A DNA stretch of 25,949 nt from a virus. The stretch lies in IMG/VR virus record IMGVR_UViG_3300042673_000265, positions 1 to 25,949 of that record. One strand, written 5' to 3'. Positions 4,001 through 19,023 of this stretch are shown here, piece by piece (position 1 is the stretch's first letter; every line of letters begins with the position of its first letter). The translations under genes and the position numbers were made by a program. The notes under the pieces were generated by a model that saw only the letters and a program-made list of their open reading frames with translations, was not told the origin of the DNA and did no database searches.

Positions 4001-4029
4001 ATTATACTTTAAAATTAGTATACAGTCAA
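4001..4029 (-). promoter_or_regulatory. Sigma70-type promoter of queE
   Basis: Minus strand: TTGACT at 4029-4024, 17-base spacer, TATAAT at 4006-4001. The -35 box overlaps the region just after the stop of the upstream radical SAM gene. Transcription would start near 3994, giving a leader of about 20 bases before queE. Confidence 0.75.
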
Positions 4030-4037
4030 ACTTTATA

Positions 4038-6074
4038 CTAAATTTCTTTGATATTTTTTGCAATTTTCGATGATCTAAAATCAAAACATGCTCTATAAAA
4101 ATATTGTTTTTGTCTATCAAGTCCTTGCATTTGATTCCAATCAATATCAAACCAACGCCCACCGATTAATATTTGGGTATCTAAAATTACAAATTCTTTG
4201 TTATTAAGTTCTAGAACCCCTGACTGTTGATATTTAAACCAATCATATTTAGAATTAAATTTTTTTCCTGATGAATAATTTATGTCAATTGTTATATTTT
4301 TAGAATAGTTTAGAAGATCTTCTAGTTTATCATCTATTTTGATCAATTGACTGATACTCTTAAATGTAGCATCAAATAATGAATCAATATCTAGTAGACT
4401 CACAAATATAAAATAGATAGCTGGAGCGAATGTAAAATTTAAATCTTCATGATAATCAATGTACAGGTCCGGGCAGTCTGTGTTGATCCATTCCTTAAAC
4501 TTATTAACAGATTTTAAATAATTATTTTGTAATGTTGTATTTGTGTTAGAATCGTACAGTATAAAATTAATAGTGTTGTTGAAAAATTCCCCATAAGATA
4601 TTTCATGTTCTTTCCATAAATAATCAGCTACTAATGATAATATCTTACTATTCTGCATTGATGCAGTAAAAATTTGTAACATATTCATTAATATCCAATC
4701 ATCCGGTGTATAGGAAAAACTTCCAACAACATATTCACCAGTCATGTCATCAAAATTATTTGCAACAGTTACTCCTGAATCTTGTTGTCGACCCGGTTTG
4801 GCTTTGATTAATCTAGTCGCACCTACACCCTGACTGCTTTTATTTTTAACAGTGACTATCTTAAACTTCTTTCTATATATTGGATCTGCAGCGGGGGTAG
4901 CTGGAAGCATAGCCCAATGGTAACTCAAAGGATAAGGTAACTGTTCTATACTAATAGCTTGTATACCAGTCTTAACTGTTTCAACTGAACTTCCAGGTAA
5001 CCCTAAAATACTTTCAATCCAGATTGGTAAGTATTTTTCTTCTTGTAATTTTTTAAACATTTTTACCTGATCTTCAAAACTAAAATCTACTCTATCCACG
5101 TTCTTTTTTACTTCATCATTGATGTCTTGAATAGCTATCTGATAATGACTTAGCATATCTGCTTCGGCGAGTAAGAGATAAATTTTAGTAAGTTGATCAA
5201 TTTTGACTTTTGTGGGTTGGATTAGTATTTGTTTAGGAAACCCATATTTTATTTTAGTTGCTACACAGTGCTTGATATATTCTATATCAATTGGAAACAT
5301 TCCAAAATTAGCATCTGCAAAATTTATGGCATCTATATTATTTTCTCCTGTCCAAGTAATTTCATCTAATACCGTGCCAAAGTCTTTCTTGTTTGTCTTA
5401 GTAAAAGTGCCGCCACCCCAGTCGCAGAAACTACACTTGTACGGACAACCTCGACTGGTTTCCATTATTAACCAACTTCGTTGTGATTTAAGATTGTTAA
5501 TAAATGGAATCATATATTGCTGTTGTGCTCTATAGGGATTCTTAGGCCATTTAAATTCTCGTTTGTTTGGTGCAAGACTGTTAAATTTTCTATCTCTATT
5601 TTTATCAGGATAATAACAATATTGTATTTGTTCTGCACATAATTTATTATTATTTTGAGATATGTTGTCTAGAATATCTAAAAAAGATTGTTCGCCATAG
5701 GCATCGCTAGGAACAACAAGATCAATGAATTGATATTGTCTAAAAAAATCTTCATTATAATGTATATCGCATTGCGGCCCACCCCAAATAATTACAGTAT
5801 TGGGAAGAGATTTTTTTATATCAGAAGCAAGATCTAAGTTAAATTTTTCATTCCAGATATAAACACTAAACGCAATTACAGTTGGTTTTTGATCAACAAG
5901 ATATTTTAATAAATTATCAGGATGGTCGTACTCTAAATTGGGATGTCCCCACTCCCAAACAGATGAATATTTACTGCGTTCCTCGTAATAGGTTTTAACA
6001 CTAGCCCATAGTAATGGAATCGAATAGGTATAAGATCCCGGTCTGTTTACTACAAAAATTTTGTTTTTCTTCAT
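4038..6074 (-). CDS. B12-binding-type radical SAM protein (678 aa)
   Basis: A 678-residue radical SAM protein with the layout of the cobalamin-binding subclass. The N-terminal 190 residues look like a Rossmann B12-binding domain (PTVIAFSVYIWNE at 64-76, VIIWGGPQ at 94-101, YGEQSF at 126-131). The 4Fe-4S motif is RGCPYKCSFCDWGGG, with Cys210, Cys214 and Cys217. FADANFGMF follows in the TIM barrel, and ILGLPG near 355 is also typical. A long C-terminal part of about 270 residues is not recognised. The protein shares its motif set and the FADANFG signature with the 595-residue protein encoded at 12411-10624, so the two are paralogues. Such enzymes methylate or rearrange unactivated carbons; the substrate here is unknown. 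It lies 131 bases after the fucosyltransferase-like gene, with no clear Shine-Dalgarno sequence before its ATG, and just upstream of queE. Confidence 0.8.
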   Translation of the reverse strand: MKKNKIFVVNRPGSYTYSIPLLWASVKTYYEERSKYSSVWEWGHPNLEYDHPDNLLKYLVDQKPTVIAFSVYIWNEKFNLDLASDIKKSLPNTVIIWGGPQCDIHYNEDFFRQYQFIDLVVPSDAYGEQSFLDILDNISQNNNKLCAEQIQYCYYPDKNRDRKFNSLAPNKREFKWPKNPYRAQQQYMIPFINNLKSQRSWLIMETSRGCPYKCSFCDWGGGTFTKTNKKDFGTVLDEITWTGENNIDAINFADANFGMFPIDIEYIKHCVATKIKYGFPKQILIQPTKVKIDQLTKIYLLLAEADMLSHYQIAIQDINDEVKKNVDRVDFSFEDQVKMFKKLQEEKYLPIWIESILGLPGSSVETVKTGIQAISIEQLPYPLSYHWAMLPATPAADPIYRKKFKIVTVKNKSSQGVGATRLIKAKPGRQQDSGVTVANNFDDMTGEYVVGSFSYTPDDWILMNMLQIFTASMQNSKILSLVADYLWKEHEISYGEFFNNTINFILYDSNTNTTLQNNYLKSVNKFKEWINTDCPDLYIDYHEDLNFTFAPAIYFIFVSLLDIDSLFDATFKSISQLIKIDDKLEDLLNYSKNITIDINYSSGKKFNSKYDWFKYQQSGVLELNNKEFVILDTQILIGGRWFDIDWNQMQGLDRQKQYFYRACFDFRSSKIAKNIKEI

Positions 6075-6205
6075 CTAAATATTTAACTTTTATCTTTCCT
6101 ATGGGTAAACTATTCATACGTTCTGTTCTGATTTATTCACAGTAGTAGCATAGTAGTCACACTATAAAATATCTTACTAACTTTTAATTTTATTTAATTA
6201 ACCTG
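6075..6205. other. 131-base gap between two genes
   Basis: The longest intergenic stretch in the window, very AT-rich. It holds an imperfect direct repeat (plus strand, about 6138-6160, two copies of an AGTAGT-like unit). I find no GC-rich hairpin with a T-run and no well-spaced -35/-10 pair on the minus strand. An AGGA about 24 bases before the next ATG is too far to be an ordinary ribosome binding site. Confidence 0.4.
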
Positions 6206-7531
6206 TTATCCTACTAGTTTACTATTATTTTTGAAATGTGTTAATTGATAATCATCTAAGTCTGACCATGAAAAATTAAATACTTCTTTGCATTCTCGTT
6301 TAATTTCGTTGGGTAGAGAATGAAAATCAGTTTTATTATAAATTTCTGGCCAATGTTCTGCTTTAATCGCATTATATTTTTCTGTAAAAATTTTATTATA
6401 ATCTTCTTCTATTAGAATTTTTTCTCGTTCTTGATATCTCTTAAAGAGATCGGCGCCTAGGACATCAACTGAATGTATGGACCTTTCTAAAGATTCTGGA
6501 ATATCAAAAATCTTGGGGGAAATCGCTTTTAAACGTTCAACAGTTTGTGCTCTGAGATTAATGCAAAGATTATAATTATGTTCTATGTCTGCAGATATTT
6601 CTTCTCTGCGATCTTGTAGTATTTTTGGAAACACACGGATATTTTCAATCGTCTGTTCCCATCGTGTTTCGAGATCGTCGACAGTGGCATATTCTGGGCA
6701 AGGTAAATAGTTATTAAAAGTTTTAAATCCTAATTCTGTTAGTTCATCGAACAAAAATCTTGATGTGGGTAACATGATAAATGGATGATGATTTAAAATA
6801 GTCATCCATGTTTTTTCAGTTATCGAACCATCTGGAGTTTCGGATAATATTGTAAAATTTGATAGCTGATATTGACCAACAGGAAAGATAACTGCACGAA
6901 AGATAACCGTTGGATCTTCTTGAAGAGTATTATTATCAACGAATGCATTTTTAGTACAGTAATCAAAAAACTCTTCGAAATTTACTGGAATCTGGCCAAA
7001 ATTCTGATAAAAATAATACAACACATGAGATTTTTGCTTATCTGCTGATGGGAAAGTCCATATGATATCACCTAATAGATCCGAGTCATATAATCTTTTT
7101 AAAAATCCAACTCTGTTATGCCTATCCAGCATACCTGTAGGAAAATACCCTTTTTCGATATGCCAATTCCATGAAGAATTGCGTATGTTTCTTTTTTCTA
7201 AATCTTGCATACAATGAAATAGCCAATAATTAATCGGAACTACCTCACAATTTTCAAGAATATTAGTAGATAGAAGTTGTGGATATGTCTTTCTAATATT
7301 GGAACTTACAATCAAAGTAATTTTACTAAAATTATGTGCGATGATTTTGTCAATGATTCCTACTAGAATATTAACAGATGATTCTCCTTGACTCGCAATA
7401 ATCAAATGAGTTTTATTAAATGGTAAATTTATCTTTGTTAATTCTCGGTTAACTATTTCATCTGTAATTTCATCTAATAGACGTACACTAAAAGGATAAA
7501 GATAATTCAGATCAATATATGCTATTATCAT
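6206..7531 (-). CDS. Fucosyltransferase-like (GT10-type motif) phage protein
   Basis: A 441-residue protein if it starts at the ATG (7531) that overlaps the TGA of the phosphoribosyltransferase gene by four bases. Two in-frame ATGs lie further upstream, but the overlap start fits the rest of this operon and gives a natural N-terminus (MIIAYIDLNYLYPF). Near residues 235-275 the segment from ILSETPDGSITEKTW to HHPFIML and ELGFKTF matches the donor-binding pattern of alpha-1,3-fucosyltransferase-like (GT10) proteins, where a conserved EKT followed by a PFI and GFKTF block is diagnostic. The first half is not recognised, and the last 100 residues are charged and helical. It may transfer a sugar to DNA, lipopolysaccharide or a protein; acceptor and donor are unknown. 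The family assignment rests on a single motif region. Confidence 0.6.
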   Translation of the reverse strand: MIIAYIDLNYLYPFSVRLLDEITDEIVNRELTKINLPFNKTHLIIASQGESSVNILVGIIDKIIAHNFSKITLIVSSNIRKTYPQLLSTNILENCEVVPINYWLFHCMQDLEKRNIRNSSWNWHIEKGYFPTGMLDRHNRVGFLKRLYDSDLLGDIIWTFPSADKQKSHVLYYFYQNFGQIPVNFEEFFDYCTKNAFVDNNTLQEDPTVIFRAVIFPVGQYQLSNFTILSETPDGSITEKTWMTILNHHPFIMLPTSRFLFDELTELGFKTFNNYLPCPEYATVDDLETRWEQTIENIRVFPKILQDRREEISADIEHNYNLCINLRAQTVERLKAISPKIFDIPESLERSIHSVDVLGADLFKRYQEREKILIEEDYNKIFTEKYNAIKAEHWPEIYNKTDFHSLPNEIKRECKEVFNFSWSDLDDYQLTHFKNNSKLVG

Positions 7532-8073
7532 CTTTCCCATGGATAAACGATCCAAACATCTTCTTCGGCTTTGTTTATTTCCACAGCACTGTAGTTGACC
7601 TTGCGGCTAAACTTGCTGGATAAATTATCAAATAATACTGCAAAACGCACATTGTTGCCCCAGACATCTGCCCAGGTTGGATCGTTAGGCAAGTTGCTAC
7701 CTTGCCAATCGTCGATGATCCAATCTAATGTAGCACCTGTATCATTGATATCATCTAAAATTAAAATGTTCTTACGCAGGCTAGGATCACTTGTTGGTTC
7801 ACCTTTAGGTCTAGGAACTGCACTAGCATCTAAATACCCAAAGGCATCTTCAGCCATCCAACCGTTGCTTTCACCACCAGTACCATCACGCAGGGCTACT
7901 TTTAATGTTTCCATTGGAACGTCTAACATATGACTCATATATACCGCGGGAACAAGTCCTCCGCGGGTAAGTCCTACGATATAATCTGGACGCCAGTTGT
8001 CTTTATACATTTGGTATGAGATTTTATTAACGTATTCACGGATCTGTTGATCATCTACATATAACTTTTTCAT
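7528..8073 (-). CDS. Type I phosphoribosyltransferase (Gpt/Hpt-like)
   Basis: A 181-residue PRTase-fold protein. The PRPP-binding loop is clear at residues 104-116 (ILILDDINDTGAT), and the pyrophosphate-binding turn VGLTRGGLVPA lies at 33-43. This pattern is closest to xanthine/hypoxanthine-guanine phosphoribosyltransferases, which convert a purine base plus PRPP to the nucleotide. A loop at 60-100, rich in Gly and Pro, is longer than usual. It lies three genes after folE in the same unit, with ATGA overlaps on both sides. It may simply salvage purines for replication. Given the neighbouring deazaguanine genes, it could also act on a 7-deazapurine base, but that is inference. Confidence 0.8.
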   Translation of the reverse strand: MKKLYVDDQQIREYVNKISYQMYKDNWRPDYIVGLTRGGLVPAVYMSHMLDVPMETLKVALRDGTGGESNGWMAEDAFGYLDASAVPRPKGEPTSDPSLRKNILILDDINDTGATLDWIIDDWQGSNLPNDPTWADVWGNNVRFAVLFDNLSSKFSRKVNYSAVEINKAEEDVWIVYPWER

Positions 8074-8369
8074 CTCATTAACTCCATGGTCATGATCTTA
8101 GCAATAGCATCTGTCTTGTTTTCTTCATCATCATTTATAATATGCATGTTAGTAGTCCATTCGCTACGATTTTTATCCCAGCGTCCAACTTCAAGAATCA
8201 TACCACCTGTAGCATTGTAGATACGGAAATTGCTTTCTGGATTACGATCAAAGAAACTAGGTGCATCACTTTTTATCCTTACGCTATCTCTAATAGGAAT
8301 CGCTTCTTCCCAATCATCGTAGCGTTCTACACCTAACCAACCGCAAATTTTACGTTTTAACCAACGCAT
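8070..8369 (-). CDS. Small phage protein, unknown function (99 aa)
   Basis: A 99-residue soluble protein that I do not recognise. The N-terminus is basic and aromatic (MRWLKRKICGWLG) and could be an amphipathic, membrane-touching helix. The middle (FRIYNATGGMILEVGRWD) looks like two beta strands with a turn, and the C-terminus is acidic and then helical. It begins three bases after the NTF2-like gene stop and overlaps the phosphoribosyltransferase start by four bases, so it is part of the folE unit. Nothing in it suggests an enzyme. Confidence 0.7.
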   Translation of the reverse strand: MRWLKRKICGWLGVERYDDWEEAIPIRDSVRIKSDAPSFFDRNPESNFRIYNATGGMILEVGRWDKNRSEWTTNMHIINDDEENKTDAIAKIMTMELMR

Positions 8370-8372
8370 AGT

Positions 8373-8705
8373 TTATCCTTTGTATGCTCTAACGCTGATG
8401 ATCTTACCGTCTTCGTTGTAGGTGATGACGTCTGTGACGAATATTTGTTCTGCACCGTTGATAGTGATCAACAGTTCAGCAATGATGTTATCGCCATCTT
8501 CATATATCGCACCTGGAGTGGCTGTGATACTGTCAACACTGTTGAAAATCTTTTCATAGACAGCTACCACATCATTTTTACCTACTGCGGCATTTTCCCA
8601 GTCACGTAATTGGCAACCTGGTGCGAACATCTTAGATATCGCATCTAAATTTTTATATGAAAATAGATAAAAATATTGTAAACTCAATGCTTTTAAATCG
8701 ATCAT
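8373..8705 (-). CDS. NTF2-like / SnoaL-like small protein
   Basis: A 110-residue protein with the pattern of the NTF2/SnoaL cone-shaped fold: an N-terminal helix pair (YFYLFSYKNLDAISKMFAPGC), then GKNDVVAVYEKIF, followed by alternating beta strands ending in ITYNEDGKIISVRAYKG, which is typical of the last strands of this fold. These domains serve as binding pockets, isomerases, hydratases or enzyme partners. No catalytic residues can be assigned with confidence, although Asp35 and Asp91 line up with common pocket positions. The ATG overlaps the TGA of folE by four bases, so it is coupled to FolE and may act on a pterin or a nearby intermediate; that link is inference from position only. Confidence 0.75.
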   Translation of the reverse strand: MIDLKALSLQYFYLFSYKNLDAISKMFAPGCQLRDWENAAVGKNDVVAVYEKIFNSVDSITATPGAIYEDGDNIIAELLITINGAEQIFVTDVITYNEDGKIISVRAYKG

Positions 8706-9397
8706 CTTGGGGCAAACTCCTGTTGTAATTTAATATTGTCAAAAAATTCTTTCTTAGTGTTGCCATCATCTTTAAAAGCACCTTTAAGCACTGTGGTTTG
8801 TGTTAGACTACTATGTGCCATGATGCCTCTGTTCTCACAGCAACCATGTGTGGCCTGTATATACACTGCTACGTTTTCACTGCCTGTGGCTTTCATTATT
8901 TCTCTCGCGATGTCATTAGCAAGTTCTTCTTGCAGTGTACCACGACGGCTACACCATTGAGCAATACGAGTATACTTACTAAGTCCAATAAGTTTCTGTG
9001 CGGCGATAATTCCAATATAGGCAACACCACTGACAGGCTGGTGATGATGACTACACATACTACGAAGCTCACTTCTAACCACCAGCATACCTTCATATCG
9101 GTCCTCACTATCATTTGGAAAAGCTGTAGCGTCTGGTGCCGGATCATACCTACCTGCCATAATCTCATTATAGTACATTTTAGCAAGACGTCTGGCTGTG
9201 CCCTTTGAGTTAGGATCATTTTCACGATCGATCAACAAGGTATCTAACACGCCCTCAAATGCTCGAGTCGCTTCATCGATCAACGCTTCTTTATTTTCTT
9301 CAGTGATGTATTCTGAGATGTTATCACCTGCCCAGAATCGTTTGTTATTGTTCTTTAGATTATTACGAATAGTTTCGCTGACTACATATTTTGTCAA
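8702..9397 (-). CDS. folE: GTP cyclohydrolase I, TTG start
   Basis: FolE opens GTP to 7,8-dihydroneopterin triphosphate, the first step to both folate and 7-deazaguanines. Zinc ligands are visible as Cys115 and His118 (SMCSHHHQPVSG) and Cys186 (HGCCENRG). IGLSKYTRIAQW and RRGTLQEELANDI are the classic active-site and substrate-binding blocks. The length of 231 residues is normal (E. coli FolE 222). The start is a TTG at 9397-9395, preceded at seven bases by GGAG; the next in-frame ATG is too far in. The gene has its own near-consensus promoter. In this context (queE, a queD-like gene and dpdA in the same window) its product most likely feeds the deazaguanine route. Confidence 0.95.
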   Translation of the reverse strand: MTKYVVSETIRNNLKNNNKRFWAGDNISEYITEENKEALIDEATRAFEGVLDTLLIDRENDPNSKGTARRLAKMYYNEIMAGRYDPAPDATAFPNDSEDRYEGMLVVRSELRSMCSHHHQPVSGVAYIGIIAAQKLIGLSKYTRIAQWCSRRGTLQEELANDIAREIMKATGSENVAVYIQATHGCCENRGIMAHSSLTQTTVLKGAFKDDGNTKKEFFDNIKLQQEFAPR

Positions 9398-9412
9398 TTT
9401 TTATCTCCGATG

Positions 9413-9439
9413 TTAACCCAGTGGATTGGGATATGTTAA
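9413..9439 (-). promoter_or_regulatory. Possible stem-loop in the folE leader
   Basis: In the minus-strand leader, TTAAC (9439-9435) can pair with GTTAA (9417-9413), with an inner CCA/TGG stem, a five-base bulge and a six-base loop. It sits between the promoter and the GGAG ribosome binding site. The helix is weak and may be chance. Confidence 0.25.
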
Positions 9440-9440
9440 T

Positions 9441-9469
9441 AGTATATAGGTTATTTAGGTCTATGTCAA
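9441..9469 (-). promoter_or_regulatory. Near-consensus sigma70 promoter of folE
   Basis: Minus strand: perfect TTGACA at 9469-9464, 17-base spacer, TATACT at 9446-9441. Transcription would start about 35-40 bases before the TTG start of folE. The spacer contains CTAAATAA followed by CC, a string shared in almost the same place with the clamp promoter. Confidence 0.85.
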
Positions 9470-9487
9470 CTTTATTTGATAATAATG

Positions 9488-10627
9488 TTATAATCCTAAT
9501 TCTGTACGTAGATCATCTACAGGACTGGACCAATCGTTGGTAAATGATCGCAAATATTCGATACGATCTAGATCTTCTTGTGTTTCTAATACCATTTCTT
9601 CATTGCAAAAATGCAATCGACATTTGTTTGATAGTGCTGCCTGTAATAATTTTTGACGATGTGCGGGATCATCGGGTAAACTGAATATACTGAATAACAA
9701 TATATGATCCACACCACCGTGTGTTATCTGATAATCTAAAAATGCATAGTTAGTTCCTTCATTATCACCACCTTGATAAGGGAAGGTATAATTACGTTTT
9801 TGACAGTATGCTTTGACTACAAGTGTTTGGAAATGGAGATCTATGTGCCTAGTCTTGATTCCTTCATATTCACCGTGGGTAACTACCACCTCACCCGGTT
9901 TAATATCTACAACCTTTGTATATTGACGATCAAACAGTTTACGGAAATATGCGCCAGGCCATTTACGATGGGGTTGTCCCCCACGCACTAGTAATCTTAC
10001 ATCCATGCTTACTCTAGTCTTTCCGGTTCTATTAGGAAAGTTGCCATGTATATGTTCTTGTAAAAACAAGTGCGCCTGCCCTGGATGTAGTGTAACTGGC
10101 CAAGCGTTCGTAGCACATGCATTTTGTATGCGTTCGTAGTCCCAATTTTCCAAAACTGTACGACGAGTGATTTCTCTGCTAGCATCCAAATCTAAAATTT
10201 GTAAGGTATTGGTTTCATAACAATCAGTAAAAGGCACCCAAATTGTGCGTAGTCCTAGTCCATTGCCCACCCATCGTCCTTGATGAAATAATAAAACTGC
10301 ACCAATTTTGTCTTGGTCTGGCTCTAAGATGCGTAAATTACCAAATTTTTGAATTAAAACGTCGGTTCCTAACTGTGGTACAATTAAATCATTTATCAAT
10401 TGATCATAATAATCGTAATATTTGGTATTCAACAATTCATGCGATGCTTTGTGATTCAATTCTGAAATTTTGTATGGAGGGACGACTTCATGAATAAGGT
10501 CTAACGATTGAACGTCAGGATAAAATTTTCTAATGGTTTCTAATACGATATCAACTAATGGATATTTTTCTAAATCATAATTAAGTGATTTATTGTTAAA
10601 TGTTTCTTGTGTGCGGCCCAAACTCAT
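9488..10627 (-). CDS. 2OG-Fe(II) oxygenase fused to a LIC12192-type carbohydrate-cluster domain
   Basis: A 379-residue two-domain protein. Residues about 85-215 look like a 2-oxoglutarate/Fe(II) dioxygenase of the PhyH-like kind. IWVPFTDCYETNTLQILD (129-146) is the typical strand with a Trp-x-Pro start, and PGQAHLFLQEHIHGNFPN (182-199), followed by RVSMDVR (205-211), gives the distal metal His (His194) and the 2OG-binding Arg. Residues about 255-362 resemble the LIC12192 family of sporadic carbohydrate cluster proteins: a FQTLVVKAYC start, an ILLFSIFSLP core, RLHFCNEE and DRIE at the end. I know the two as separate neighbours in bacterial glycan loci; here they are one chain. The ATG overlaps the stop of the B12-type radical SAM gene by four bases. 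It is the last gene of the 14-gene run. The oxygenase call is solid; the second domain rests on memory of the family pattern. Confidence 0.7.
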   Translation of the reverse strand: MSLGRTQETFNNKSLNYDLEKYPLVDIVLETIRKFYPDVQSLDLIHEVVPPYKISELNHKASHELLNTKYYDYYDQLINDLIVPQLGTDVLIQKFGNLRILEPDQDKIGAVLLFHQGRWVGNGLGLRTIWVPFTDCYETNTLQILDLDASREITRRTVLENWDYERIQNACATNAWPVTLHPGQAHLFLQEHIHGNFPNRTGKTRVSMDVRLLVRGGQPHRKWPGAYFRKLFDRQYTKVVDIKPGEVVVTHGEYEGIKTRHIDLHFQTLVVKAYCQKRNYTFPYQGGDNEGTNYAFLDYQITHGGVDHILLFSIFSLPDDPAHRQKLLQAALSNKCRLHFCNEEMVLETQEDLDRIEYLRSFTNDWSSPVDDLRTELGL

Positions 10628-12411: not shown

Positions 12412-12422
12412 TTTTTTTTTTT
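12411..12422 (-). repeat. Run of 12 A residues between two genes
   Basis: On the minus strand an unbroken run of 12 A residues spans the TAA stop of the epimerase gene and the ATG of the radical SAM gene. It replaces the ribosome binding site; A-rich leaders can be bound by ribosomal protein S1. The exact length may also be uncertain for technical reasons. Confidence 0.8.
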
Positions 12423-13335
12423 ATTTTTGCTTCCAATGAGCAATAGTTAAATCTAATCCAGTATCTAAATCAACTTTTGGAGCCCACCCAGTAAGTTCTG
12501 TTACTAGCTTATGATTGCTGTTAAGTAGATAAATTTCACCAGGACGTTCTGGTTTAGTATTCCAAAAGATACTGCCTTTCCAATCTAACTTGTCTGCAAT
12601 CTTATCCGCTAATGCGCTAATTTGTATGGGATTGTTTGGACCAATGGTAAAGATATAACCACTATTGGTTTTTTCTGGATTTTCGATAATCGTAGACCAT
12701 AGGTCTAGCAGATCATCAATGTATAAGAAGTTGCGATAAGGTGTACCGTAACCCAATCTTACTGCACTTGAATTACGCAACATCTGAGTAATAATCTGTT
12801 CAACTACAAAGAAGTCGTTTTCTTTACGCCCATAGGTATTGGTCTGACGGATAGCACAGAATGGCAAGCCTAAACTGCGATGTGCGTATTCTAAATATTT
12901 CTCACATGCCAGTTTTGCCACAGCATAAGGTGCATTGGGATTAGGTTTAGTGTTCTCGTCAAATGTTGGAATCGTGCCTTTAAAATATCCTTGTTTTTTA
13001 ATTAGGTCACTAACGGGTTGCCAACCATATACTTCCATGGTACTAGCAAATACAAAGTTCTTTAAGTTCTTAAGTTTGGCAGCACTTTCAATTAGGTTGA
13101 CTGTGCCCACATAGTTAATTTCACTAAAGGTAACTTGCTCATAGAAACTGCGTTCAACTTCAGTTCTAGCACCAAAATGTACGATAATCTCAGGGTTAAA
13201 ACTAAATAATTCTTCGCGAACTTTGCTAAAATCTAACAGATCTGCTGTCATAGCAAATACAGTATGATTCTTTTTTAATAATTTAGTAAAATGTGATCCG
13301 ATAAATCCGCTGGCACCTGTAATAAAAATTTTCAT
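12421..13335 (-). CDS. Extended-SDR nucleotide-sugar epimerase/dehydratase
   Basis: A 304-residue NAD(P)-dependent sugar nucleotide enzyme of the extended short-chain dehydrogenase family. The cofactor loop GASGFIGS is at 7-14, the catalytic Ser/Thr at 98-99 (FASTMEVYG), and Tyr137-x3-Lys141 (PYAVAK) completes the triad. RNFLYIDDL near 205-215 and a C-terminal RPGE are usual in UDP-glucose 4-epimerase and GDP-mannose dehydratase relatives. The length is close to normal. The substrate cannot be chosen between UDP- and GDP-sugars. Its ATG overlaps the stop of the small 2OG-type oxygenase gene by four bases. In this operon it sits with a DegT-like protein and a glycosyltransferase, which suggests synthesis of a specific sugar. 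Confidence 0.88.
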   Translation of the reverse strand: MKIFITGASGFIGSHFTKLLKKNHTVFAMTADLLDFSKVREELFSFNPEIIVHFGARTEVERSFYEQVTFSEINYVGTVNLIESAAKLKNLKNFVFASTMEVYGWQPVSDLIKKQGYFKGTIPTFDENTKPNPNAPYAVAKLACEKYLEYAHRSLGLPFCAIRQTNTYGRKENDFFVVEQIITQMLRNSSAVRLGYGTPYRNFLYIDDLLDLWSTIIENPEKTNSGYIFTIGPNNPIQISALADKIADKLDWKGSIFWNTKPERPGEIYLLNSNHKLVTELTGWAPKVDLDTGLDLTIAHWKQK

Positions 13336-13844
13336 TGATTTGTTACTCCTGTAATTATCATCATGTACCTGTTACTATGTCCTAAATTTGCTGTCATGTG
13401 TAAATCCGACAGTTTAAAACCAATCCAGTCACCTGCCGTCCAATTTGTAAATCCAAAATCTGCTATTTCGATATATTGACCGGATTGCCAATCATCCAAC
13501 ATAACCATCACTCTAGATATTTCGGAGTTGTTGTTTATTCCTGTTAACTCGTTATAAAACTTATATACATCTTTATGTTTAGGAATTACGTTTCCGAAAT
13601 CTAATCTATTTACTTGAACTTTCAGTTGTTTTAACCAGTTAAACTCTTTATATATAGAAAAAAATCTAATATCACCTTCTAAATCTTTAATTTGCCAAAC
13701 AGAAGTATTATACCTTTTAGCGTCCTCGGGATCAAACAAATCACTTAAAGCATTTGAGTTATTTAAACTATATTTTTTTTCTACAAATTTTAATTGCTTA
13801 ATGTCCTCTAAGTTCCATGTTGGATGAATGTGACCTCGCATCAT
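13332..13844 (-). CDS. Small 2OG-Fe(II) oxygenase-like protein
   Basis: A 170-residue protein with a double-stranded beta-helix pattern like that of aspartyl/prolyl hydroxylase-type oxygenases. PKHKDVYKFY gives a His-x-Asp pair (His90, Asp92). TAGDWIGFKLSDLHMTANLGHSNRY gives a distal His149 and Arg159, in the order metal His-x-Asp, then His, then 2OG-binding Arg. It is shorter than many relatives but long enough for the core. No signal peptide is present. ATGA overlaps join it to the DegT-like gene before it and the epimerase after it. It may hydroxylate a sugar, nucleotide or amino acid. This is the second 2OG-type protein in the operon; the substrate is unknown. Confidence 0.65.
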   Translation of the reverse strand: MMRGHIHPTWNLEDIKQLKFVEKKYSLNNSNALSDLFDPEDAKRYNTSVWQIKDLEGDIRFFSIYKEFNWLKQLKVQVNRLDFGNVIPKHKDVYKFYNELTGINNNSEISRVMVMLDDWQSGQYIEIADFGFTNWTAGDWIGFKLSDLHMTANLGHSNRYMMIITGVTNQ

Positions 13845-14419
13845 TTTATTATAATCTCTCTTAAATCTGGGTATTCTTTATATTTAACAGTCTGGTCCAC
13901 AGTGGATAATAATTCTAATCCACGAGCTGCATCTTCTATAGTAGGCTTATAATGATATCCAACACGGAATACCTTTTGTTGTTCCCAGGGACTAATATTA
14001 AGATCTCGCCCATCATACCGCTGTTGGCTAAGGACATCATAGATTTCTACATCATCAGTTAAGACCGCACCACCACGACCAATCTCAAGAGGTTTATTAT
14101 AACCAAAACTTAGGCACTGTAGCTGTCCCTCGCGATACATACCTTCTCGAAGCAGTCTAGCTGAATCCCAGATGCGTGTGCCAATGAACTGATATTCACC
14201 GATCCATGGTTTATCAGTATAGCTATATTCAATGCCTAACTTGTGCATGGTCATTGGGATACTGAGATAGGTATGTGCTGGAAATTGCACACGAGTGATA
14301 CGGTCATAGCGTAGACACAGCTCAATAGCGTGTGTGCAACAATCTGTCATCACGGCATATGGTGCGCCTGTGAACAGAGTCAATGCCCGTTCAAATTCAT
14401 AGATCTTATCAAACATCAT
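13841..14419 (-). CDS. Half-size DegT/DnrJ/EryC1-type aminotransferase-like protein
   Basis: A 192-residue protein with the large-domain motifs of DegT-type PLP-dependent sugar aminotransferases. VQFPAHTYLSIP (44-55) matches the substrate-side strand, RIWDSARLL (82-90) holds the Asp that contacts the PLP ring nitrogen, and SFGYNKPLEIGRGGAVLTDD (104-123) contains the candidate PLP lysine, Lys109, and the glycine-rich turn. Full-length relatives have about 370 residues; here the C-terminal domain is missing. It is not a simple truncation by frameshift, because the stop overlaps the next start by four bases and the sequence ends in an ordered way. It may work as a minimal enzyme, a partner subunit or a non-catalytic binding protein. 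Confidence 0.7.
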   Translation of the reverse strand: MMFDKIYEFERALTLFTGAPYAVMTDCCTHAIELCLRYDRITRVQFPAHTYLSIPMTMHKLGIEYSYTDKPWIGEYQFIGTRIWDSARLLREGMYREGQLQCLSFGYNKPLEIGRGGAVLTDDVEIYDVLSQQRYDGRDLNISPWEQQKVFRVGYHYKPTIEDAARGLELLSTVDQTVKYKEYPDLREIIIK

Positions 14420-15474
14420 TTGATATTGTTTAATAGATTGGTCGCTGAAAAGAATTTTTCTGTAAGACTGACAGCATTAGCACGAACTAACTGTGTGCGA
14501 GAGTCAAAGTTTTCCATGTGTTCACGGATTATATTGACCAGTTTAGTTTTATGTGTCAGATAGCTATCAAAACTTTCAGTCCACTCACTTGGGTATTTAA
14601 ACAATCCGCCATACATCTCTTGATAACTTAAACGATCTGGAACCACCGGAACTGCACCAACCAGCATACCTTCATAGCAACTGATGCCTAGAGTTTCTTG
14701 TAGGTTAGCTGAGAATACTATCTTACTTTCACCTAATAGGCGATGATACTGATCTTTAGTCAACTGTTGATCCTGGCAGACTATCCACTCATATTGTGGT
14801 AGTGTTTGGGCTAGATCGCGAAATATCTCTACCTGTTTCTCTGGAGCGATGCGATGCGGAAACAAGATAAGATCACGCTTAGGTAAATCCTTATATGGCG
14901 CAAGTATCTCTGCCATATATTCCATAGGCCAACCTGTGCGAACGATCTTCTTTTCGTTAAACCAGTTAGGTACTTTAAACAAGTTAAAGTTGAACATAGT
15001 AATATGGAAATCAGTAGCAAAGTAGTTATAGTCCACAGCTTCAAAGAAACTTTTCTCTGCATGTCTGACCCATGGCGCATCACCAATAAGACGTCCTAAG
15101 AAGTCCTGTGGATCATAACTACCAGCATGCCAAAGTGCGTGTATCTTTACCTTTATGTCCAACAGCTCGGACATATATTTAAGATTGATGATGCCAGGAT
15201 GCCAAGCATCAGTGAAAATGAAATGATCTCCAGCGTGAACCTTACCATCCGTAAACAGGCGCCCAATCTGCCCAACTTGATCAGCTTTGTAAACATTTGT
15301 GCCGCCAAAGTTGAGAAAAGCACCGGGAGTAGTAGCTTGAGGAATATCGGTAGGGCCTTCAATAACCACAACATCATGTCCTGCATCCTTTAGTAGATTA
15401 GGCACATGAGTCTTCCATTGACCCGTGTACCTTGTTTCAACTGCTTCTAGATCAACTAGAAATACAGTCATCAT
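14416..15474 (-). CDS. GT-B glycosyltransferase, similar to tRNA-queuosine mannosyltransferase type
   Basis: A 352-residue GT-B fold glycosyltransferase of the GT4-like group. The C-terminal Rossmann half begins at ILFPHRIAPEKQVEIF (about 203-218), where Arg and Lys usually contact the nucleotide-sugar phosphates. ANLQETLGISCYEGMLVGAVPVVPDRLSY carries the donor-binding Glu-x7-Glu motif. The FPHR..PEK and QE..GIS..E...GA.P..P.RLSY blocks resemble the DUF3524/queuosine mannosyltransferase group. That is suggestive beside QueD and DpdA, but it is a motif-level likeness only. The N-terminal half has TDAWHPG and HALWHAGSYD segments. It is coupled by ATGA overlaps to the genes on both sides. The acceptor could be modified DNA, tRNA or a glycan. 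Confidence 0.75.
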   Translation of the reverse strand: MMTVFLVDLEAVETRYTGQWKTHVPNLLKDAGHDVVVIEGPTDIPQATTPGAFLNFGGTNVYKADQVGQIGRLFTDGKVHAGDHFIFTDAWHPGIINLKYMSELLDIKVKIHALWHAGSYDPQDFLGRLIGDAPWVRHAEKSFFEAVDYNYFATDFHITMFNFNLFKVPNWFNEKKIVRTGWPMEYMAEILAPYKDLPKRDLILFPHRIAPEKQVEIFRDLAQTLPQYEWIVCQDQQLTKDQYHRLLGESKIVFSANLQETLGISCYEGMLVGAVPVVPDRLSYQEMYGGLFKYPSEWTESFDSYLTHKTKLVNIIREHMENFDSRTQLVRANAVSLTEKFFSATNLLNNIK

Positions 15475-15698
15475 TGACCTCTGTTGTTTCTATTATAGCC
15501 AACATGTCCATTACGGGCCTGCCATTGCTGACGTTTCTTACGGCGTTCCTGCCATTCTTTATATTCTGGCGATCTATATAGATCAGCCTCATCATATTTG
15601 ATCATACGGAAGCGACAGTAGTTTAACCATGCATCTAGGTCTTGGAAAATTTGGCGTACTTCAGCCTTCATTGGATATCTGCGATTGTCTTGTGCCAT
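15471..15698 (-). CDS. Small basic phage protein, unknown function (75 aa)
   Basis: A 75-residue basic protein, rich in Arg, Lys, Gln and aromatic residues, with a helical N-terminal half (EVRQIFQDLDAWLNYCRF) and an Arg/Asn/Gly-rich C-terminal tail that could bind nucleic acid. I do not recognise a family. A strong ribosome binding site (AGGAG) lies eight bases before the ATG and follows the QueD stop codon directly. The same leader string, GGAGAAACAA, precedes the sliding clamp gene. The stop overlaps the glycosyltransferase start by four bases. Confidence 0.7.
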   Translation of the reverse strand: MAQDNRRYPMKAEVRQIFQDLDAWLNYCRFRMIKYDEADLYRSPEYKEWQERRKKRQQWQARNGHVGYNRNNRGQ

Positions 15699-15707
15699 TT
15701 GTTTCTC

Positions 15708-16133
15708 CTATACGGACACAGATTGATAAGGACGAGTATGATTATACTCAACATAACACCCATTCTCGCCATCTTCACTTACTTCAATGTGAACATCACG
15801 ATTGGGATACTTGCTGGCGATCTGATCGTATAAGTCATCTGCGATCATCTCACAACTCTTATAGTTTAATTCTAGTATGCCACTGTAGAGATTTTCACAC
15901 CAGCGTTTGAACTGTATGAACTCTAGTTCACGATCATCATGGAATACATCAATACTTATCTTAAAATGGAACATATGGCGGTGCGGATGTGCTAGAAAAC
16001 TGACATCTGCCAGTTTAGGATCTGAAGCCGCCGCTGGAAAAGCATGAATACCTTCCTTCTGGAAAGTCACCCAGATTTTCTTCTGTGCTGATTGTTTAAT
16101 TCTTTCTATACGTTCACGTTCTATTTTTATCAT
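15708..16133 (-). CDS. queD: 6-carboxytetrahydropterin synthase-like protein (QueD), no canonical catalytic Cys
   Basis: A 141-residue PTPS/QueD-fold protein, expected to convert dihydroneopterin triphosphate to 6-carboxytetrahydropterin for QueE. The zinc-binding His-x-His appears as HRHMFHF (His51, His53), with His30 as the likely third ligand. LEFIQFKRW (70-78), NYKSCEMIADDLYDQI (90-105) and VHIEVSEDGENGCYVEY (114-130) match the three conserved blocks that follow. In canonical QueD a catalytic Cys sits four residues before the first His of His-Gly-His. Here that position is Leu47, and the only cysteines are at 79, 94 and 126. The N-terminal 20 residues are an extra basic helix. It follows radical SAM gene 17140-16139 by five bases. 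The fold is clear; the chemistry may differ from standard QueD. Confidence 0.8.
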   Translation of the reverse strand: MIKIERERIERIKQSAQKKIWVTFQKEGIHAFPAAASDPKLADVSFLAHPHRHMFHFKISIDVFHDDRELEFIQFKRWCENLYSGILELNYKSCEMIADDLYDQIASKYPNRDVHIEVSEDGENGCYVEYNHTRPYQSVSV

Positions 16134-16138
16134 ATATT

Positions 16139-16159
16139 CTATTCTCTATTCTCTATTCT
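16139..16159 (-). repeat. Three perfect tandem copies of a 7-base unit at a gene end
   Basis: On the plus strand CTATTCT occurs three times in tandem (16139-16145, 16146-16152, 16153-16159). It encodes the last residues and stop codon of the SPASM-type radical SAM gene and lies just before the queD-like start. A 7-base unit shifts the frame with each gain or loss. Confidence 0.9.
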
Positions 16160-17140
16160 ACACATATTAATACATATAGGGTTAGGGTTGTTATCTAAAC
16201 TTTCTGGTAAGATTTTTTGATAGAACTCATTTTTTATGATATCTTCTATTTTGTGATAATGTAGATCGATATGATCAAACTTATCCAATCTTAAATATTT
16301 TTTTAAATGTATTTTCGTAGCTTTATTGATTGTTGATTTATCTGGTGCTACATGGGATCCAAGTAAATAACAACAAGGCCAAACAGTCCCATCAGCATAG
16401 ATACTGACCCATTTAATATCTCTACTTTCGCAATCTATTTTTAATTTATCATATTGATTATACAATTTTACAATATTTTCTTCGACATTGTCAACAGTTG
16501 TCTTTTCGATTTTATGAGAAAATACTCCTTTATTGTAAACATCTGCAGATAAAGTGGGTCCGAATCTATCACTCGGTAAATATTCAAACCTCTTAAACCC
16601 TAATTTTTTTGATAAGGCTGAGCAGGCGTCGATCTGATGCTGATTGTGCTTGAAAACTATCATTTGCCATACAGCGTTTCCCCCTGCTTTTATGAAAGAT
16701 TCTGCATGGTTAATTATACGTTCCCAATCAGTGTTAACACGATATAAACCATGTGTATCTTTCATACCATCAAGAGCAAAGTGTACAGTCGCATTATCCC
16801 TGATAATTGTTCTACCCAATTCTTCCCAAAAATCGCAATTTCTCATGCTACCATTGGTGCCAAGCATAAATTTTCCTGGACTGTGTTCTAACACATATCT
16901 ACAGAATTTTATAATATCCGGATGCATAGCATTATCGCCGGTGGTCCCAAGAAATTTTGTATATTGTATATGATTTAAAAAATCAGGAGATACTTGATTT
17001 TTAAATACTTCAAAATCTAAAAAAGTATTTAAATTTGGAAGAGTACCATCATTTGGAGTTCGGGCACACTGTGGACATAGTGCATTACAACTATTAGTTG
17101 TTTCGATGTCTAATTTATATATTTCTTCAGGTCGAAACAT
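16139..17140 (-). CDS. SPASM-type radical SAM protein (333 aa)
   Basis: A 333-residue radical SAM protein. The cluster motif SCNALCPQC is at Cys18, Cys22 and Cys25. In place of the GGEP turn it has GTTGDNAMHPD (65-75), a variant seen in some of these families. A C-terminal auxiliary-cluster region of SPASM type is suggested by Cys237, the pair Cys256-Cys257 in ADGTVWPCCYL, and Cys323/Cys327 at the very end (PICINMC). SPASM proteins often act on peptides, but also on small molecules such as sugars. Its ATG shares one base with the stop of the 175-residue gene, and queD follows by five bases, so it is firmly embedded in the dpdA-queD operon. The substrate is unknown. Confidence 0.82.
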   Translation of the reverse strand: MFRPEEIYKLDIETTNSCNALCPQCARTPNDGTLPNLNTFLDFEVFKNQVSPDFLNHIQYTKFLGTTGDNAMHPDIIKFCRYVLEHSPGKFMLGTNGSMRNCDFWEELGRTIIRDNATVHFALDGMKDTHGLYRVNTDWERIINHAESFIKAGGNAVWQMIVFKHNQHQIDACSALSKKLGFKRFEYLPSDRFGPTLSADVYNKGVFSHKIEKTTVDNVEENIVKLYNQYDKLKIDCESRDIKWVSIYADGTVWPCCYLLGSHVAPDKSTINKATKIHLKKYLRLDKFDHIDLHYHKIEDIIKNEFYQKILPESLDNNPNPICINMCRIENRE

Positions 17141-17667
17141 TATTTAATAATCTCATCTTTACCATATTGGTCCCAATCAGTAAAGCTGTCAGTTGTTGTT
17201 AAATCACGTAAACGATGGCACCAAACCCCTGGGTTTGAATGATCAAAGTCTAGATCGTCTAGCTTAATTGTAGCATTATATCCCAGCTGTGTCAAGTAGG
17301 GTAATTTTACCGAAATCTGCGGAATGAATCTGCGATGACTAATAAATGTACATTCTAGCACACCTTGTACCACTGCAACGTCAAAATCTAGGGTGCACCA
17401 AAGGCCTGAGGTCAAGCATTGATCAATCATACGTTCCCACGGACGCCAGGCGTTGACATCATCTGTGGCTAAGTTAGGAAAACTTTGATTAGCACCAAAA
17501 TAAATATGTTTACACTCTTTTTCTTTGGCTAATGTGATAATTTCTTCTGCATGTTGTACGCCTACTACGAACAGTGTCATCATACCAAATGCAGGAGTTC
17601 GTTCGATCTCCACACCAGTGAAGTATGTTATATCTTCTTTTACACCATCTGTATAATCACGCTTCAT
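17140..17667 (-). CDS. Phage protein of unknown function between coiled-coil and radical SAM genes (175 aa)
   Basis: Given as 175 residues from the ATG at 17667, which overlaps the end of the preceding small gene by 11 bases. An upstream ATG at 17706 would add 13 residues but would overlap by 50 bases. The protein has hydrophobic strands separated by charged helices (MMTLFVVGV, then EEIITLAKEKECKHIYFG), then a Trp-rich middle and a long acidic segment (KLDDLDFDHSNPG) before a WCH motif. The alternating pattern suggests an alpha/beta fold, but I do not recognise the family. No signal or membrane segments are present. Its position, one base from a radical SAM gene and two genes from the queD-like gene, suggests a partner in the same pathway. 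Confidence 0.7.
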   Translation of the reverse strand: MKRDYTDGVKEDITYFTGVEIERTPAFGMMTLFVVGVQHAEEIITLAKEKECKHIYFGANQSFPNLATDDVNAWRPWERMIDQCLTSGLWCTLDFDVAVVQGVLECTFISHRRFIPQISVKLPYLTQLGYNATIKLDDLDFDHSNPGVWCHRLRDLTTTDSFTDWDQYGKDEIIK

Positions 17668-17851
17668 CGTATTCTGCCAGTTGTTTTTTAGTTTGAGTAA
17701 TTTCACGTTTAATCCCTAGTTTCTCATGTTTGATTTTACCAAGGTGCATGTCATCTAGGTAATGACTATACCCATCTTTGATTTTCTTTTCCAACACTGC
17801 ATGGCGTTCTTGTAGATGTTTAAGATGATGTTCTAATTTTTCTTTGTTCAT
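17657..17851 (-). CDS. Small coiled-coil protein, DUF465/YdcH-like
   Basis: A 64-residue, highly charged helical protein with heptad-like Leu/Ile spacing through its length (LEHHLKHLQERHAVLEKKI, later HLGKIKHEKLGIKREI). The His-x3-Leu-x2-Leu start and the KxxKLxxKxxI end match the small DUF465 (YdcH-like) family of bacterial coiled-coil proteins of unknown role. A good ribosome binding site (AAGGA) lies eight bases before the ATG. Only 35 bases separate it from the twitch-type radical SAM gene upstream, and it overlaps the next gene by 11 bases. Confidence 0.7.
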   Translation of the reverse strand: MNKEKLEHHLKHLQERHAVLEKKIKDGYSHYLDDMHLGKIKHEKLGIKREITQTKKQLAEYDEA

Positions 17852-17886
17852 AGATCATTCCTTTCTTAAGTGTTGTTTAATTATAT

Positions 17887-19023
17887 TCATAATTTAACTC
17901 CAAATGTTTCTTCAAAATTTTGATTTCTAATCTGATCCAATTCTAGTGTATAGTTTACAAAAGTATTATATGATGATGCATTCATTATACACTTATTTAG
18001 ATTATTTTGCAATGATTTTAATGTCTGGATTGATCGTTCTGGGTTATTATCTATAGTGGACAATGTATCAATAGCTTGCTGTAATTGTTCATTCGCTGTT
18101 TGTTTTAACGCATCATTTAATACTGCTGGATTTAAAAAAATTGGATCTTTACAGATACTAAACCATATTTCCAGTGGTTGATCTGCATATTCTATTTTAA
18201 GACTCTTAAAGAATATCAATAGATTGTTAATGTCTAATATACTATATGCACTTAACACAGTATTAAATCCTACACTTTGTCTAGTAGACAGTATCTGTTT
18301 AATATTTTTAACTAACGTAGGCCATACAGTTCCATTACGAACATATTCTGCAACATGGGACACAGCATCAAGACTGATAGTCCAATGAACACGATCAAAA
18401 TGTTTGACTAATTCAACAATTTTATTATTAATTACACTAGCATTTGTAGTAATCAATAATTCGCAAGCGGTATTATTTAAACGAATAAGTTCTTCTAATA
18501 CCGCTATATTTTCTTTAATTAATAATGGTTCCCCACCTGTAAAATTAATTCTTTTCACCGTAGACAATAATAATTTAATATCCTGTTGGCTCTTGTGATT
18601 TTCTAAATGTATATTAGTCGGTGTGTGATACTTGGATAATTTTAGATTTTTCTGTATCTCTCTGGCTATCTCACTGCTGAAACTAGGTTCACAGCTGCGG
18701 CAACTGAAATTACATAAATTACTGTGGCGCAGATCTAGATATAAAATTTTGTCAGGAACAGTTTCGATGCTATAATTCCAATCTTTAAGTGCCAATGCCC
18801 TGGTGCTGGTATATCCTTGTTCTTCTAATTTCAGACAACCTTGATAACACTCTTGTGGAATTTTACCTTGACTAATGTTATTTTTTATGTCAGCCAGATA
18901 TGTTGATTTAAAAAAATCTATTGGCGAAACATCAAGTTTAGTAGAACTACTACAACACATTTTAATACCGTCTGCTTGGACAAATTGATGTATCCAAGGC
19001 AAAGGGCAAAAGAATTTAGACAT
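17887..19023 (-). CDS. Twitch-type radical SAM protein (378 aa)
   Basis: A 378-residue radical SAM protein with an added N-terminal cysteine domain. The catalytic cluster motif is NLCNFSCRSCEP, with Cys104, Cys108 and Cys111; NFTGGEPLL near 158-166 is the SAM-binding turn, and LLITTNASV and WTISLDAV follow in the barrel. Before it, FCPLPWIHQF (5-14), MCCSS (Cys23, Cys24) and CYQGC (Cys59, Cys63) form a set of five cysteines that resembles the CPxPW/twitch auxiliary-cluster element, which is more often found at the C-terminus. The start overlaps the dpdA stop by eight bases, which ties it closely to DpdA. It could act on the deazaguanine base before or after insertion, or on an unrelated substrate; only the enzyme class is certain. 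Confidence 0.82.
   Translation of the reverse strand: MSKFFCPLPWIHQFVQADGIKMCCSSSTKLDVSPIDFFKSTYLADIKNNISQGKIPQECYQGCLKLEEQGYTSTRALALKDWNYSIETVPDKILYLDLRHSNLCNFSCRSCEPSFSSEIAREIQKNLKLSKYHTPTNIHLENHKSQQDIKLLLSTVKRINFTGGEPLLIKENIAVLEELIRLNNTACELLITTNASVINNKIVELVKHFDRVHWTISLDAVSHVAEYVRNGTVWPTLVKNIKQILSTRQSVGFNTVLSAYSILDINNLLIFFKSLKIEYADQPLEIWFSICKDPIFLNPAVLNDALKQTANEQLQQAIDTLSTIDNNPERSIQTLKSLQNNLNKCIMNASSYNTFVNYTLELDQIRNQNFEETFGVKL

Follow-up and report, generated by a model that had tools for sequence, protein, structure and literature searches.

The window, by which is meant the whole 25,949-nucleotide stretch of DNA analysed here, comes from a large aquatic virus of bacteria and holds a core of genes conserved among related phages, around which radical SAM (rSAM) and other enzymes are gained, lost and replaced. 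Quite possibly, though the reading is a tentative one, it is a gene cluster for DNA modification, conserved among phages, whose accessory enzymes are interchangeable and in which a DpdA-type enzyme would insert a 7-deazaguanine and a GT4-type glycosyltransferase (GT) would add a sugar. The comparison was with complete dpdA-to-queE clusters from related phages, 30 with that of the window included. FolE, QueE, DpdA, the 15708 family and a protein here called X are present in 29 of 29 complete clusters and GT in 28 of 29. The core genes, with the near-core and smaller conserved ones, are as follows.

3123..3974, minus strand: QueE, 7-carboxy-7-deazaguanine synthase, the fifth rSAM, core (phrog_2076, 4e-52; 29/29 complete clusters)
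7528..8073, minus strand: phosphoribosyltransferase-fold protein (PRT), near-core (Pfam 6.1e-13; 27/29 complete clusters)
8373..8705, minus strand: SnoaL-like protein, often between folE and PRT (Pfam 2.3e-10; 17/29 complete clusters)
8702..9397, minus strand: FolE, GTP cyclohydrolase I, core (Pfam 4.7e-40; 29/29 complete clusters)
13841..14419, minus strand: half-length DegT/AHBA-type PLP enzyme, 192 aa, near-core (Pfam 2e-13; 23/29 complete clusters)
14416..15474, minus strand: GT4-type glycosyltransferase, 352 aa, core (EX7E motif; 28/29 complete clusters)
15471..15698, minus strand: small conserved ORF, 75 aa (24/29 complete clusters)
15708..16133, minus strand: phrog_17812 protein, core, labelled QueD in the initial annotation (PTPS-like His and SCE motifs; 29/29 complete clusters)
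17140..17706, minus strand: X, conserved core protein of no assigned function (29/29 complete clusters)
17657..17851, minus strand: small conserved ORF, 64 aa, between dpdA and X (homolog in 23/29 complete clusters)
19016..20557, minus strand: DpdA-type DNA guanine transglycosylase, 513 aa, core (TGT fold, invariant motifs)

On its AlphaFold model (pLDDT 84) the product of 19016..20557 is a TGT-fold protein, the nine best PDB matches all being tRNA-guanine transglycosylases (E 6.6e-6 to 3.8e-3), and its DSGGFQ, QG, GGQN and FDC motifs are invariant. By sequence it matches nothing in Pfam, PHROG, NCBIfam or the PDB. The name DpdA, with DNA as the probable substrate, derives from the fold together with the gene context. 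FolE and QueE are both present, with scores below the NCBIfam equivalog cut-offs. No QueC was recognised in the window and no amidotransferase was found nearby; QueC is also missing from 19 of 20 long records of relatives (the remaining one has a weak partial match), and its activity may be host-supplied.

The QueD label of 15708-16133 is softer than it had been given. Even with the threshold at E=1, none of the PTPS or QueD models of Pfam and NCBIfam matches the protein, its profile match to the QueD of ACP17 is weak (probability 10%), and ACP17 encodes a true PTPS plus a separate 15708-type protein. Its standing as a proven QueD is rejected on these grounds. X, whose start is probably Met14, near 17667, is rejected as QueD as well, because it lacks PTPS features and its ACP17 homolog adjoins the true QueD. 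X has no library match, and its low-confidence model (pLDDT 69) gave no useful structural match; PA5oct-like phages have a homolog (45%), and so does ACP17 (31%), where it lies next to FolE/DpdA. [That neither QueD nor QueC is confirmed counts against the best explanation too.]

The GT is the core member that points beyond a plain deazaguanine. Its EX7E motif (E260, E268) is invariant, and Pfam Glycos_transf_1 matches 6 of 15 family members, at best with 8e-12 (the window GT itself only at 0.0075); by sequence nothing in the PDB matches either it or the twitch rSAM considered below. Of 18 long records, 16 have the GT, and the exceptions (G059 and G015) are also without a dpdA match. Its gene touches that of DpdA in Paride, ACP17 and X1, and in Phosso it is beside FolE/QueE; the 15708 family is in all four alike, as copies 49-58% identical that adjoin or are near GT/DpdA. 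Judged by homology, GT and the 15708-type protein thus accompany deazaguanine genes in the unrelated cultured phages PA5oct/Paride, ACP17, X1 and Phosso. From the locking of GT to DpdA in unrelated phages a sugar-bearing deazaguanine is predicted, with DNA as the presumed target of the GT. The hypermodification of the inserted base that was proposed at the outset is plausible, and the more so because a conserved GT sits in the core; the further part, rSAM action on the base or its sugar, is conjectural.

In the phage DpdA/DpdA2 7-deazaguanine systems of Hutinet et al. 2019 (PMC6884629), as here, FolE, QueE and a TGT-fold DpdA are clustered. The window differs from these in having no nearby QueC or amidotransferase, in a DpdA that matches no PHROG, and in a core to which the GT4, 15708 and X families are added, with rSAM add-ons; ‘radical SAM’ is a term absent from the main text of the 2019 paper. 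Closer is the deazaguanine system of the jumbo phage PA5oct, which has homologs of the window DpdA (36%), GT (42%), 15708-type protein (49%), QueE and X (45%), though PA5oct-type phages, unlike the window, gave no B12 or twitch rSAM match. Iyer et al. 2021 (PMC7824862) report the PA5oct system, and the passages found there connect no glycosyltransferase or rSAM with it.

The accessory genes of the window, several of which overlap their neighbours, are these.

4038..6074, minus strand: B12-A, cobalamin-type rSAM, 678 aa, accessory but cluster-tied (TokK/CysS profile match)
6206..7555, minus strand: cargo protein of no assigned function, 449 aa (homologs in the PRT-to-queE stretch of relatives)
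9488..10627, minus strand: fusion of a 2OG-Fe(II) oxygenase with SpoChoClust_1 (‘sporadic carbohydrate cluster’), cargo (TIGR04324, TIGR04323)
10624..12411, minus strand: B12-B, cobalamin-type rSAM, 595 aa, cargo of a carbohydrate-type module (Pfam 6.2e-15, plus B12-binding)
12421..13335, minus strand: NDP-sugar epimerase/dehydratase, cargo (Pfam Epimerase 1.7e-41)
13332..13844, minus strand: cargo protein of the B12-B module (HxD...H pattern; recurs with B12-B)
16139..17140, minus strand: SPASM-type rSAM, 333 aa, sporadic cargo (Pfam Radical_SAM 6.2e-7)
17887..19023, minus strand: twitch-type rSAM, 378 aa, accessory but cluster-tied (NF033640; 8-base overlap with dpdA)

The five rSAM genes of the initial annotation are real: the ORFs are intact at 6074-4038, 12411-10624, 17140-16139, 19023-17887 and 3974-3123, all on the minus strand, QueE has its phrog_2076 match, and the other four match Pfam Radical_SAM above the curated cut-off (B12-A 4.3e-10, B12-B 6.2e-15, SPASM 6.2e-7, twitch 1.4e-8), with the CxxxCxxC motif and auxiliary cysteines invariant in ortholog alignments. 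The tight spacing noted for two of them holds as well, since twitch and dpdA overlap by 8 bases, and the SPASM gene ends 5 bases before 15708-16133 and has 1 base in common with 17140-17706. The viperin-type antiviral rSAM model gave 48.8 bits, below its curated cut-off of 180.

All four extra rSAM genes belong to a single run of genes, some overlapping, that point the same way, and locus L150 repeats most of the window set (B12-A, B12-B, epimerase, fusion protein and the 13332-type protein). Both features would suit the initial proposal that the four enzymes are consecutive steps of a single obligate pathway on the inserted base. The counts in the 30 complete clusters, on which that proposal is rejected, leave it largely refuted and hardly credible: 13 lack any extra rSAM, 14 carry a single one and two carry a pair, and all four occur in the window alone. 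The four vary independently, their slots are interchangeable and are empty in near relatives, and the B12-B module also occurs without deazaguanine genes. Because related viruses gain, lose and swap them, the rSAMs look like optional add-ons and not a fixed pathway. The density described as very unusual stands in so far as the window has the top count of the 30 clusters. It does not stand against the genomic background of the relatives: these genomes are rich in rSAM genes throughout, and the overall density here (3.9 versus 3.4 per 100 kb) is therefore not unusual. The cluster shows no enrichment of rSAMs as a class (P 0.47), and a general concentration there is rejected.

That absence of overall enrichment also favours a pure cargo hot spot between the polymerase/clamp and exonuclease genes, at which unrelated metabolic genes would gather and the rSAMs would have unrelated roles and keep their position through recombination between the conserved genes on either side. 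The cargo is heterogeneous (sulfate permease, subtilase, peptide deformylase and antiporter genes occupy these slots elsewhere) and its GC3 is low, 0.21-0.29 versus mostly 0.29-0.38 in core genes, which suits the reading with exchangeable accessory enzymes too. An ADH-like cargo gene, not an rSAM, is equally cluster-faithful (3/3). Residence in the cluster may thus come from an insertion hot spot and inheritance, and by itself it is no proof of function. Nevertheless a hot spot as the whole explanation is distinctly improbable, given the behaviour of two of the four enzymes.

The twitch protein scores 267 bits against NF033640 (curated cut-off 170) and is thus a member; within NF033640 it belongs to a dpdA-linked subfamily separate from the arrays that these genomes carry at other places. 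In a scan without dpdA as bait this subfamily was found solely beside dpdA, at 14 of 14 loci from about 12 distinct phages. Its phylogeny tracks that of DpdA (Mantel 0.75), and in L129/L130, where the gene order is rearranged, it still adjoins both dpdA and the 15708-type gene. Full-length B12-A relatives, also sought without dpdA as bait, are in deazaguanine clusters at about 16 of 18 distinct loci, and in the long dpdA-ascertained records three of four B12-type rSAMs are within the cluster (P 0.0016). The B12-A phylogeny does not follow that of queE (Mantel 0.32; control 0.83). B12-A occupies several different slots yet keeps to the cluster, which recombination at a single slot does not explain. 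[The neighbouring 6206..7555 protein, without a match in the Pfam, PHROG and NCBIfam searches, has homologs in the PRT-to-queE stretch of L030 (54%), L150 (29%) and L079 (25%).]

B12-A matches, over both its B12 and rSAM domains and with CxxxCxxC present, C-methyltransferases of solved structure, TokK (4.6e-59) and CysS (3.7e-50), and so has TokK/CysS-type homology; its C-terminal part is unmatched, and C-methylation is a prediction from that homology. Among the cobalamin-dependent rSAM C-methyltransferases TokK, CysS and KedN5, both B12 proteins match the KedN5 model best, at 169.5 bits and, for B12-B, 172.1, far from the NF033712 cut-off of 700 and thus outside that subfamily.

B12-B is of another kind. 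As far as its gene neighbourhoods tell, it belongs to a portable carbohydrate-type module with the epimerase and the 2OG-oxygenase fusion. The fusion protein matches TIGR04324 at 1.8e-23 (83.4 bits, below the curated cut-off of 150) and TIGR04323 at 55 bits, which is at the cut-off; the nearest NCBIfam models for the epimerase are LegB/RmlB, all far below cut-off. The HxD...H pattern of 13332..13844 suggests a 2OG-Fe(II)/cupin oxygenase, and proteins of this type accompany B12-B in L150, L190, L193, L195 and L198. In L190, L193 and L195 the fusion protein, B12-B and the 13332-type protein are together without deazaguanine genes, and the bacterial relatives of B12-B are located among epimerases, GDP-mannose dehydratases and DegT, that is, among sugar-nucleotide genes. 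All this would fit accessory genes that build or remodel a host-surface or virion glycan (O-antigen-type, or tail decoration) and are in the cluster merely as in a cargo region; similar sporadic sugar clusters in cyanophages are read as O-antigen diversifiers by Iyer et al. 2021 (PMC7824862). For the accessory genes at large that explanation seems rather unlikely, as it does not account for the near confinement of twitch and B12-A to deazaguanine clusters, across DpdA proteins 52-94% identical, or for the GT touching DpdA in unrelated phages. Conservation of the set beside dpdA is partial: twitch and B12-A, as subfamilies, keep to the cluster and do not occur routinely in relatives that lack dpdA, whereas for B12-B, which is portable, and for distant relatives of the sporadic SPASM enzyme this is in part the case.

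The SPASM enzyme just misses the Pfam SPASM cut-off (E 0.001, 19.7 bits against 21.5). It has two close orthologs (67% and 56%) in the same slot, C256, C257, C323 and C327 being invariant in the three, and in most relatives the X-to-15708 gap is −3 bp, that is, the slot is empty. Many SPASM/twitch rSAMs modify peptides, and both enzymes have weak similarity to peptide maturases, with arrays of related twitch-like rSAMs elsewhere in these genomes. That the two act on a peptide or protein, whether of phage or host, is nonetheless very unlikely, for the cluster-tied twitch subfamily is distinct from the arrays (at least 423 bits, as against at most 141 for off-cluster twitch-like rSAMs).

Under the favoured reading, that of a modification cluster whose accessory enzymes are exchangeable, 7-carboxy-7-deazaguanine would be the product of FolE, QueE and a QueD activity that either 15708-16133 or the host provides. 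For this base, or for a derivative, DpdA would exchange guanine in DNA, presumably that of the phage. The dedicated GT4 enzyme would then put a sugar on the inserted base, and accessory enzymes would alter base or sugar differently in each phage. B12-A may C-methylate an unactivated carbon, by analogy with TokK and CysS; the twitch rSAM may act at some further site of base or sugar; and B12-B, the epimerase and the 2OG-oxygenase fusion may provide the sugar or reshape it. By coming and going, such enzymes would vary the modification and so counter host nucleases. The wider form of this, that a glycosylated 7-deazaguanine made through a DpdA-GT4-phrog_17812 core is common to unrelated large phages, with B12 and twitch rSAMs diversifying base or sugar, is possible but doubtful.

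The two-stage logic, with a handle installed on the base and then decorated, is like that of T4-type glucosyl-hmC and CmoX/CmoY (PMC12783734). Here the handle would be a 7-deazaguanine brought in by transglycosylation, and the sugar on it is predicted. The phage 7-deazaguanine bases in the literature examined carry small groups only. A 2023 NAR paper reportedly describes further phage deazaguanines, DpdA subfamilies and later tailoring enzymes. If the prediction is correct, a sugar-bearing deazaguanine would add a new type to the known DNA hypermodifications, the gain and loss of accessory rSAMs around the core would amount to DNA decoration diversified by gene exchange, and TokK/CysS-type enzymes, which methylate unactivated carbons, would have DNA-directed candidates. 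The model of the core concerns phages already in culture, those of the Paride/PA5oct type, ACP17, X1 and Phosso.

All five radical SAM genes reported in the initial annotation are present and intact on the minus strand: queE (3123-3974), a twitch-type gene (17887-19023), a SPASM-type gene (16139-17140) and two B12-type genes, B12-A (4038-6074) and B12-B (10624-12411). The core cysteines of the last four are invariant in each ortholog alignment. The close packing claimed, with overlaps or gaps of eight bases or fewer, is also real, the twitch gene overlapping dpdA by 8 bases and the SPASM gene ending 5 bases from the gene at 15708-16133. The record is a virus fragment of 25,949 bases. Across 1-9919 its gene order is confirmed by L122, L123 and L124, near-identical contigs (99.9%) that represent this phage in other samples. 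In QueE a long insert separates putative cluster cysteines two and three (CNFTC...TGCDS), which usually lie close together.

DpdA (19016-20557) had no match in sequence libraries; the nine best PDB matches of its predicted fold are tRNA-guanine transglycosylases. The identities of FolE and QueE are clear. That of QueD, formerly given to 15708-16133, is unsupported: the protein matches no PTPS model and belongs to phrog_17812, and Acidovorax phage ACP17 has a phrog_17812 protein plus a true PTPS. QueC was not found in 19 of 20 long related records. The DNA polymerase at 22317-24974 and the following gene show that this is part of the replication block in a large phage of T4-like type.

20560-21291, sliding clamp by our reading; member of phrog_12062, whose entry states no function, and homologous to the annotated clamp of Sinorhizobium phage Phosso

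Clamp and dpdA abut (20557-20560); 35 relatives hold a conserved gene of ~195 aa between them, and it is present in L029, a contig with dpdA 97% identical to that of the window. Adjoining the polymerase, 25086-25877 has the appearance of a fatty-acid-desaturase-like membrane protein, with homologs in some relatives.

When 80 viral contigs bearing a close dpdA are compared gene by gene, a conserved order emerges: dpdA, X (17140-17706), the 15708 gene, a small ORF (15471-15698), a glycosyltransferase gene (GT, 14416-15474), a half-length DegT gene (13841-14419), folE, a phosphoribosyltransferase-fold gene (7528-8073) and queE. The radical SAM genes occupy slots between these, and in most relatives the slots are empty, X and 15708 then being spaced by -3 bp without the SPASM gene and dpdA and X by ~150 bp without the twitch gene. 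Among 30 complete dpdA-to-queE clusters (two entries being one phage), 13 lack an accessory radical SAM gene, 14 carry one and 2 carry two; a set of four is seen in the window alone. Third-position GC is 0.21-0.29 in cargo versus 0.29-0.38 in most core genes. The radical SAM genes are accessory rather than steps of one obligate pathway. Other cargo includes a sulfate permease, a subtilase and a peptide deformylase. In the queE..2552 slot, L060:9300-10400 and nine other loci carry S-adenosylmethionine synthetase MetK (466 bits, cut-off 309), which might feed SAM-dependent steps.

The density that had seemed so unusual is peculiar to the window among complete clusters, but not to the cluster within its genomes: long relatives have many radical SAM genes away from it (up to 12 per genome, often in arrays), and nine long dpdA-bearing records give 3.9 per 100 kb inside versus 3.4 outside (P 0.47; assignment was by hand from coordinates, with some cluster lengths estimated). 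Twitch-like arrays far from dpdA occur at G010:163-170 kb, G012:266-272 kb, G008:98-108 kb, G055:241-247 kb and G084:43-51 kb in large phage genomes, and include one 856-aa double radical SAM protein.

Two of the four subfamilies, twitch and B12-A, are tied to the deazaguanine cluster. Searching the viral collection by twitch alignment, dpdA not being used, gave 14 loci (~12 distinct; DpdA identities 52-94%), in all of which dpdA lies beside the twitch gene or is separated from it by a small ORF or 15708-type gene alone. Even where gene order is altered (L129 and L130), twitch remains between clamp and 15708 with dpdA next. Its divergence tracks that of dpdA (Mantel r 0.75; 0.91 for the control, dpdA against clamp). 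For full-length B12-A, about 16 of 18 distinct relatives are inside deazaguanine clusters, in most cases ahead of queE, in others following GT or folE; the exceptions, L161 and L165, are perhaps fragments. The phylogeny of B12-A departs from that of queE (0.32, versus 0.83 for the control, queE against the exonuclease), so B12-A has been exchanged, though it still ends up in this cluster. Profile A5 for B12 proteins has its strong match inside the cluster in 3 of 4 independent long genomes ascertained by dpdA (P 0.0016). However, an ADH-like cargo gene of the dpdA-X slot is just as confined (in-cluster in 3 of 3 cases, 18 long records). Cluster fidelity is thus partly a trait of the region, and this control weakens the argument from location to radical SAM function.

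B12-B travels with an epimerase (12421-13335), a 2OG-oxygenase/SpoChoClust_1 fusion (9488-10627) and a 13332-type protein (13332-13844). The set recurs within a deazaguanine cluster in L150; fusion, B12-B and 13332-type protein occur without deazaguanine genes in the short contigs L190, L193 and L195. In bacteria, relatives of B12-B (31-38%) have epimerases, GDP-mannose dehydratases, DegT and FkbM-type genes as neighbours, which suggests sugar chemistry. Two close orthologs of the SPASM gene share its slot; its distant orthologs are found in other places.

The conserved core is the greater surprise, and the pairing of GT and phrog_17812 with deazaguanine genes is the strongest lead. GT carries EX7E, a motif of GT4 enzymes. 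It occurs in 28 of 29 complete clusters and in 16 of 18 long records, the other two giving no dpdA match in a search that fell short of some whole records. Its homologs adjoin DpdA in unrelated cultured phages, Pseudomonas phage Paride (42%), ACP17 (36%; DpdA recognised from motif order and position only) and Xanthomonas phage X1 (25%; DpdA annotated queuine tRNA-ribosyltransferase), and in Phosso (51%) one sits with FolE and QueE. A 15708 family member (49-58%) is beside or near GT in all four. A distant GT relative (25%) in Xanthomonas phage PhiXhv-12 (L307), with no DpdA visible near it, accompanies glucosamine-6-phosphate synthase-like and GlcNAc-deacetylase-like genes. We know of no report of glycosylated 7-deazaguanine in DNA, and none is described in those parts of the literature compared, one key 2023 paper lying outside the comparison.

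DpdA would insert the QueE product, or a derivative, and GT would add a sugar to the inserted deazaguanine. B12-A, which is related to TokK and CysS, both C-methyltransferases, and the twitch enzyme may tailor base or sugar, and the B12-B module may remodel a sugar, for DNA or for surface glycan. The full chain is a tentative proposal, somewhat short of an even chance. The initial annotation was right in what it observed, and only in part in its interpretation: the cluster is not one pathway but reads as a modification core whose add-ons can be exchanged, two of them being tied to that core.
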